Part shown: piece by piece, positions 23,234-25,046 of the stretch
Numbering within the stretch: the first letter of the stretch is position 1
How the letters are laid out: the number at the start of each line of letters is the position of its first letter
DNA from: Zetaproteobacteria bacterium CG_4_9_14_3_um_filter_49_83
Lineage (GTDB): Bacteria > Pseudomonadota > Zetaproteobacteria > Mariprofundales > Mariprofundaceae
NCBI GenBank assembly: GCA_002791545.1
Contig: PFXG01000089.1
Coordinates: forward strand, 1 to 48,787
Length of the DNA stretch: 48,787 nt
Direction of reading: 5' to 3'
Made by a program: the position numbers and the translations under genes
Notes under the pieces: generated by a model
The model's database searches: none
What the model was told of the DNA's origin: nothing
What the model saw: only the letters and a program-made list of their open reading frames with translations

Positions 23234-23262
23234 TTGACCGTAACGCTCTGGAATGCTTGAAT
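23234..23262 (+). promoter_or_regulatory. Candidate sigma-70 promoter of leuA leader
   Basis: TTGACC (23234-23239) and TTGAAT (23257-23262) are separated by 17 bases. They match the sigma-70 consensus at five and four of six positions. A start about seven bases after the -10 would fall at 23269-23270, on the ATG of the leader peptide. Confidence 0.5.
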
Positions 23263-23269
23263 CAGCCGC

Positions 23270-23347
23270 ATGATTTCAACAGGTAAAAATATAAATTTGG
23301 CAAATGCGCTGTTACTAGGACTGCGTATGGGCTTGTGCGCTCGCTGA
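23270..23347 (+). CDS. leuL: Leucine-rich leader peptide of the leuA attenuator
   Basis: A 25-codon frame from ATG 23270 to TGA 23345-23347. Six of the 25 residues are leucine, with the core ALLLGL encoded by CTG-TTA-CTA-GGA-CTG at 23309-23323 and further Leu codons at 23297 and 23333. Control codons clustered just before a pair of mutually exclusive hairpins are the hallmark of amino-acid-responsive transcription attenuation. No Shine-Dalgarno sequence precedes the ATG. The promoter at 23234-23262 would start transcription at or next to it, so the message may be leaderless. An internal TTG at 23297 is an alternative start. The gene symbol is by analogy with other leuA leaders. Confidence 0.72.
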   Translation: MISTGKNINLANALLLGLRMGLCAR

Positions 23348-23376
23348 AAACTTAAAGTTCAGCGATTTCACAAGCC
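23330..23376 (+). promoter_or_regulatory. Antiterminator hairpin of the leuA attenuator
   Basis: GGCTTGTG (23330-23337) pairs perfectly with CACAAGCC (23369-23376), and inside it CGCTGAA (23342-23348) pairs with TTCAGCG (23358-23364). The 3' arm shares AAGCC (23372-23376) with the 5' arm of the terminator, so the two structures exclude each other. A ribosome stalled on the Leu codons leaves this hairpin free to form. A ribosome reaching the TGA covers its 5' arm and frees the terminator. Confidence 0.75.
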
Positions 23377-23403
23377 GTAGGTTAAACCTGCGGCTTTTTT
23401 TTT
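23372..23403 (+). terminator. Intrinsic terminator of the leuA attenuator
   Basis: AAGCCGTAGG (23372-23381) pairs with CCTGCGGCTT (23387-23396) over ten positions, with one T-G wobble and a five-base loop, followed by a run of nine T ending at 23403. It lies about 100 bp before leuA and overlaps the antiterminator by five bases. Confidence 0.85.
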
Positions 23404-23501
23404 GTCTGAGGAAGGTCTGAAAAAACGATGTGCCAGCTTTGAATGCATGGTGCTTCAGATTTTCCCTGAATGAGGATGTTTAAATTAACAGGAGAATAGT
23501 G

Positions 23502-25046
23502 ATGTCCGATCGCTTGTATATTTTTGATACCACCTTGCGCGATGGCGAGCAGTCACCCGGCTGTTCGATGAATATTGATGAAAAGCTGCGCGTGGCGCAT
23601 GCGCTGGCAACGCTCGGTGTGGACATTATCGAAGCAGGTTTTCCGATCGCGTCACCGGGTGATTTCGAAGCGGTGCATCGTATTGCCAAAGAGGTGCATG
23701 GGCCGAAGATTGCCGGATTGGCGCGGGCGGCGCAGCGCGACATCGAACGCGCCGGTGAGGCCGTCAGACCGGCCGGAGATCGTGCGCGTATTCACACGTT
23801 TATCGCCACCAGCCCGATTCACATGGAAGCCAAATTGCGTATGAGCCCCGATCAGGTGCTTGAGCGCGCCGTGGAAGCAGTAAAGCTGGCGCGTTCATTG
23901 GCACCGGAAGTGGAATTTTCCGCTGAGGATGCCGGTCGTTCTGAGATGGATTTTCTTTGCCGCATTGTCGAGGCGACCATTGCCGCCGGAGCGCGCGTGA
24001 TCAATATCCCGGATACCGTCGGCTACATGACACCGGACGAATTCGGCTATCGTATCCGCACCCTGATTGAGCGCGTCCCCAATTCCGATCAGGCGATTTT
24101 CTCGGTACATTGCCATAACGATCTGGGACTGGCCGTGGCTAATTCTTTGGCCGCAGTGGAAAACGGAGCTCGTCAGGTGGAATGCACAATCAATGGTTTG
24201 GGTGAACGTGCCGGCAATGCCGCTTTGGAAGAAGTTGTGATGATTTTGCGTACCCGTTCGGATCGTTACGACATCGAGACCGGTATCGACACCACCCGCA
24301 TCGTACCGACCTCGAAGCTGGTTTCGCAGATTACCGGCATGCCGGTGCAACCGAACAAGGCGATTGTCGGGGCCAATGCTTTTGCGCATGAGTCCGGTAT
24401 TCATCAGGATGGCATGCTGAAGCATCAGAAAACCTACGAAATCATGACGCCGGAATCGGTTGGCTGGAACACCAATCGCATGGTGCTGGGTAAACATTCC
24501 GGACGTGCTGCGCTGAAATCCCGCTATGACATACTGGGCGTCAAGTTGGATGATGAAAAGCTGGTGGCGGTGTTCGAGCGCTTCAAGGTGCTGGCTGATA
24601 AGAAGAAAGATATTTTCGATGAAGATCTGATGTCCATTCTCTCCGGCGATTCAGAAGAGCTCACCGAGCGTATCAAGCTGGTCAGTTTGCATGCAGCCTC
24701 AGGCACCAGGGATGCACCGATAGCGGCAGTTGAGCTGGATATCGAGGGCAAGCTGCACAAGGCAACGGCGCAGGGCGACGGGCCGGTGGATGCTGCTTTT
24801 CAGGCGATAAAATCACTGGTTGAACCCAATGGTAAATTGCTGTTGTACTCAGTGAATGCCATCACCTCGGGCACCGATGCGCAGGGCGAAGTGACGGTGC
24901 GCCTTCAGGATGGTGATCGTATCGTTAATGGACAGGGTTCGGATACCGACATCGTGGTGGCTTCGGCCAAGGCGTTTGTTGCAGCGCTGAATAAATTGCC
25001 GAACATGCATGCCAAAGAGGTGCATGCCCAGTATTCCGGCGTTTGA
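23502..25046 (+). CDS. leuA: 2-isopropylmalate synthase
   Basis: A 514-residue enzyme that condenses acetyl-CoA with 2-oxoisovalerate, the first committed step of leucine synthesis. DTTLRDGEQ (9-17) supplies the metal-binding aspartate and catalytic arginine. VHCHNDLG near residue 204 and GLGERAGNA near 228 are the other barrel signatures. The C-terminal regulatory (LeuA dimer/allosteric) domain is complete, so leucine feedback inhibition is expected. AGGAG lies eight bases before the ATG. The upstream attenuator gives a second, transcriptional layer of leucine control. No other leu gene is nearby. Confidence 0.97.

Follow-up and report, generated by a model that had tools for sequence, protein, structure and literature searches.

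Transcription attenuation by leader peptides is a classical mode of control of amino acid biosynthesis. In enteric bacteria, both theory and experiment indicate that, of the leu control codons, CUA is the most sensitive, and its importance for the sensitivity of the leu attenuator has been discussed (PMC1183508). Several leaderless leader peptides have been described in Streptomyces lividans, including leuL1, located upstream of leuA (PMC8079986), and a pseudoknot LEU element has been described for actinobacterial leuA leaders (PMC1262725). In Sinorhizobium meliloti, the first nucleotides of the trpL attenuator RNA are the ATG of its leader peptide (rnTrpL, peTrpL; PMC7298713), and leaderless translation of trpL is supported by ribosome profiling (PMC10117765). 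A sequence-only reading of the DNA analyzed here had proposed a leucine attenuator with a possibly leaderless leader peptide; it rightly named Sinorhizobium trpL as a precedent, but regarded such a leader as less usual before leuA, where leuL1 of S. lividans had already been reported (PMC8079986).

Our analysis covered a window of 48,787 nucleotides (the whole stretch of DNA that was analyzed). This DNA is zetaproteobacterial, and the nearest relatives of its leuA, which are approximately 87-91% identical, come from Zetaproteobacteria (Mariprofundaceae and allies). The leuA gene, encoding 2-isopropylmalate synthase, is located at 23502-25046 of the plus strand, as are all features described below unless stated otherwise (NCBIfam NF002087, 833 bits with a cut-off of 729; TIGR00973, 733 bits with a cut-off of 599), and is preceded by the Shine-Dalgarno sequence AGGAG at 23490-23494. 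Transcription of leuA is very probably controlled, in response to leucine, by a ribosome-mediated attenuator located upstream of it, whose leader peptide would be made from a leaderless mRNA. The gene lying 5' of this leader in the window is divergent, on the minus strand, and from our reading of its frame encodes a MoxR-type ATPase, with matches to AAA ATPase families only below their cut-offs. This gene order is unlike that of most relatives, in which a co-directional gene, which we read as pssA, ends approximately 190-420 nt upstream of leuA at the loci that keep the leader. The unit formed by the promoter and the leader ATG is retained in the window despite the differing gene order.

The putative leader promoter is composed of a -35 box, TTGACC (23234-23239), a 17-nt spacer and a -10 box, TTGAAT (23257-23262). 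A consensus promoter scan of the window alone did not flag this TTGACC-17-TTGAAT arrangement, a mediocre match to the consensus; it is convincing because it is conserved in relatives, TTGAC being conserved among the tabulated zetaproteobacterial loci. Across the 37 tabulated loci, the -10 box and the leader ATG are separated by 7 nt (6 nt in three loci). As these loci had been chosen with a promoter at 34-38 nt, two controls were made. When the best promoter match was taken from the 120 nt upstream, it fell at 6-7 nt in 34 of the 37 loci, compared with 2.7% of shuffles (6-8 nt). An in-frame ATG was also found 6-7 nt after the -10 box in 25 of 26 leaders picked by their Leu run, stop codon and terminator only, the sole set free of any choice of spacing.

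The transcript is predicted to start at 23270, 7 nt after the -10 box, on the A of the leader ATG. At the relatives' loci, most leader start codons are not preceded by a usable Shine-Dalgarno sequence, as expected for a leaderless leader peptide and as the sequence-only reading had noted for the window: the longest Shine-Dalgarno-like match spans 0-4 nt at the leader ATGs vs 5-7 nt at leuA in 36 of 37 loci, and two leaders reach a 5-nt match with a slightly different search window. A pyrimidine occupies position -1 in 34 of the 37 loci, and position +1 is the A of the ATG, which corresponds to the usual preference at bacterial start sites. From these patterns, we infer that the leader transcript is leaderless and starts on the leader ATG.

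The stretch between the -10 box and the leader ATG (23263-23269) is conserved as G/C-rich in the window and its relatives, with a consensus of about CCGCCGC. GC-rich discriminators are usually tied to promoters lowered by ppGpp, a link that one would not expect upstream of a gene for amino acid biosynthesis. When the whole genome was searched for this promoter-ATG spacing, most of the sites returned were repeats or chance matches, and one further case was plausible. At locus L125 (G000:C53:19983-20020 and downstream), TTGACC-17-TTCAAT is followed 6 nt later by an ATG without an obvious ribosome binding site, opening a frame of 98 residues directly before a gene that we read as zapA-like; this is possibly another leaderless transcript in the source genome. 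On several contigs of the same genome, G000 (L113, L120, L121, L126, L129-L132), a near-identical TTGACATTTACACATTTGCTGGATCAAATTCG(G/T)GATG recurs at many places and probably belongs to a mobile or repeated element.

The leader peptide gene (23270-23347) consists of 25 codons plus TGA and encodes MISTGKNINLANALLLGLRMGLCAR, with six Leu codons at 23297, 23309, 23312, 23315, 23321, and 23333. The control codons CTG-TTA-CTA (23309-23317) are followed by GGA and a further CTG (23321-23323), and most relatives have Leu runs at a similar distance from the stop codon. As in known attenuators, the frame is short and conserved, and its codon run specifies the amino acid whose biosynthesis the following gene serves. 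Leu accounts for 24% of the leader codons, and CTA represents 18.8% of the leader Leu codons vs 1.7% of the Leu codons in leuA of the same species. Folding places the control codons within a small hairpin (23304-23328), and an equivalent hairpin is found in 24 ungapped relatives, where 78% of cells are paired vs 59% after permutation, with none of 1000 permutations as high. This hairpin is retained in or beside the Leu codons across relatives with differing sequences and may correspond to a pause hairpin.

Downstream of the control codons, we identified an antiterminator-type hairpin (23330-23376) with the stop codon inside it. Its outer helix pairs GGCTTGTG (23330-23337) with CACAAGCC (23369-23376), and its inner helix (23341-23348/23358-23365) surrounds the stop codon. 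An intrinsic terminator follows at 23372-23403, with a stem formed by 23372-23381/23387-23396 and nine T at 23395-23403, the first two of which fall within the stem. The sequence AAGCC (23372-23376) is common to both structures, making them mutually exclusive, with the T run placed after the terminator as in an attenuator. All elements that the sequence-only reading had listed, namely the promoter, the 25-codon frame with six Leu codons, the hairpin at 23330-23376, the shared AAGCC and the nine-T terminator, are present at these positions, and the leader folds better than 200 of 200 dinucleotide shuffles (z = -4.6).

Comparison of 30 aligned sequences showed that 93.8% of cells are paired in the outer antiterminator helix and 89% in the inner helix, with changes on both sides, while sliding the partners by 1-3 columns left at most 41% paired for the whole structure. 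For the terminator, 93.2% of cells are paired vs at most 61% with slid partners, again with changes on both sides. The shared arm has two variable positions, at which the triples U.A.U, C.G.U, C.G.C, and a few others occur, and its two alternative pairings are retained in 30/30 and 29/30 sequences. The proposed switch finds its best support in this joint variation of the arm with its two partners; it is the slid-partner control and the triples that carry the weight, because the pair-count shuffle control takes no account of relatedness.

Under this attenuator model, RNA polymerase would initiate at the A of the leader ATG, or about one base from it at most, with a ribosome starting directly at the bare 5' end of the transcript. 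When charged leucyl-tRNA is short, the ribosome would stall on CTG-TTA-CTA, leaving 23330-23337 free to pair with 23369-23376; this pairing would take AAGCC away from the terminator and allow leuA to be transcribed. When leucine is plentiful, the ribosome would reach the stop codon (23345-23347) and cover the 5' arm of the antiterminator, so that the terminator stem (23372-23396) could form. Geometry and constrained folding agree that a ribosome at the control codons frees the antiterminator arm and that one at the stop codon covers it: when a ribosome footprint covers the Leu codons, the window sequence folds into the antiterminator (8 pairs) with the terminator formed only in part, and when the footprint covers the stop codon it folds into the full terminator (10 pairs). 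With the footprint on the Leu codons, equilibrium folding gives the full antiterminator in some relatives only; many prefer the terminator, so that in these relatives the switch would have to depend on which structure folds first as the RNA is transcribed. We dropped a claim that no leader pairing competes for the antiterminator arm (no superattenuation), as without the 3' arm this region pairs upstream with a mean probability of 0.56.

Upstream DNA was available for 60 zetaproteobacterial leuA loci, of which 40 carry the same element and 20 lack it. These 40 comprise the 37 tabulated loci (defined by promoter, ATG, Leu-rich frame, and T run), L087, and two loci (L020 and L023) in which the promoter, the ATG, and the Leu-rich frame are clear although the strict filter excluded them. 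The sequence-only reading had stated that it would be contradicted by relatives without a Leu-rich frame and paired arms; among the 60 loci, such relatives are limited to loci missing the whole element, most of which have leuA within about 100 nt of the preceding gene. Elsewhere the proposed attenuator logic holds up, as the Leu-rich frame and its Leu runs, the paired arms, which covary in both helices, the overlapping terminator and the 7-nt spacing from -10 to ATG are retained. In loci without the element, leuA may be read from an upstream promoter, which fits its absence near a previous gene.

A covariance model of the RNA, used with strict search filters that lose weaker members, found one copy per genome in 18 of 61 genomes searched; 17 of these 18 copies lie just upstream of a leuA, and the remaining one belongs to a genome without a full leuA match. 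On a tree of LeuA proteins, from which L087 was left out, the element changes between presence and absence about 14 times. We read this patchy presence as repeated loss, as the element is so alike throughout, a reading that the tree alone does not establish. The zetaproteobacterial sequences directly upstream of ilvB and trpE were also scanned, and none contained a convincing leader with a run of branched-chain or Trp codons. Upstream of an Ectothiorhodospiraceae leuA (L060; within the 480 bases before position 2001), a short frame ends in a dense Leu codon run, CTCCTGCTTCTGCTTGCGCTCCTCCTCCTGCCCTGA, with no clear T run, and is possibly a different kind of leucine leader.

Other explanations of the element were considered. 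It is improbable, although conceivable, that the leucine attenuator operates with a leader having a normal 5' untranslated region, transcription starting farther upstream or translation using another in-frame start. The 5' end of the leader transcript is a prediction, some relatives have extra in-frame starts upstream of or within the frame, and read-through transcripts may exist where another gene ends shortly upstream, as in most relatives. Such a leader would nevertheless have to accommodate a -10 to ATG distance fixed at 6-7 nt in 37 loci, and found in 25 of 26 picked without the promoter. The leader ATG has weak Shine-Dalgarno matches, and none of the other in-frame starts combines conservation with a strong match. 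In the window, moreover, the upstream gene is divergent and provides no co-directional read-through, yet the arrangement is kept.

We give a similarly low likelihood to the idea that, in Zetaproteobacteria, promoter and leader start codon are maintained as a single fixed unit for the sake of leaderless initiation itself, and that the terminated leader RNA has a trans-acting role, either as a very small leaderless mRNA or as a small RNA, like rnTrpL/peTrpL of Sinorhizobium. Far less plausible still is that the element amounts to no more than a small RNA ending at a terminator, or to the terminator itself, its Leu-rich frame being incidental. The terminator is indeed the strongest single feature, and there is weak, sub-threshold similarity to the terminator-bearing small RNA families sroD and BjrC1505 (Rfam), but the frame, the Leu run and the CTA enrichment are retained in relatives, the stop codon lies within a covarying helix, and the element is located directly before leuA. 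A leucine attenuator with a leaderless leader peptide is the reading that we favor.

We found no published description of this element in Zetaproteobacteria, which is weak evidence of absence since the literature covered is thin in subscription papers. Leaderless leader peptides, including one before leuA, are already known. With the present element, leucine attenuation through a leaderless leader peptide would reach a further class, whose members are mostly marine iron oxidizers. The collection of some 40 aligned examples with a fixed promoter-to-ATG spacing offers a good natural data set for studying why certain attenuators do without a ribosome binding site. In terms of annotation, a short leader gene and a terminator should be marked before leuA.

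Among the known systems, leuL of Escherichia coli and Salmonella (Rfam RF00512, Leu_leader) shares with the zetaproteobacterial element a Leu leader that includes the rare codon CTA, competing antiterminator and terminator structures, and a position before leucine biosynthesis genes. Unlike leuL, the zetaproteobacterial leader has a different peptide, no Shine-Dalgarno sequence and an apparent zero-length 5' untranslated region; an Rfam search of the window gave no match to RF00512 up to E = 10, and only sub-threshold matches to unrelated small RNAs. The S. meliloti trpL system responds to tryptophan, precedes trpE(G), and also acts in trans, whereas the element described here precedes leuA and would respond to leucine. 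With leuL1 of S. lividans, reported to be transcribed leaderless, it shares a Leu-rich leader peptide before leuA; leuL1, however, is reported to be without a typical Rho-independent terminator (PMC8079986), while the zetaproteobacterial leader has a classical terminator and antiterminator. In the LEU element, the Leu codon run pairs with the Shine-Dalgarno sequence of leuA and, together with a pseudoknot, replaces the terminator, whereas in the zetaproteobacterial leader a classical terminator is present.
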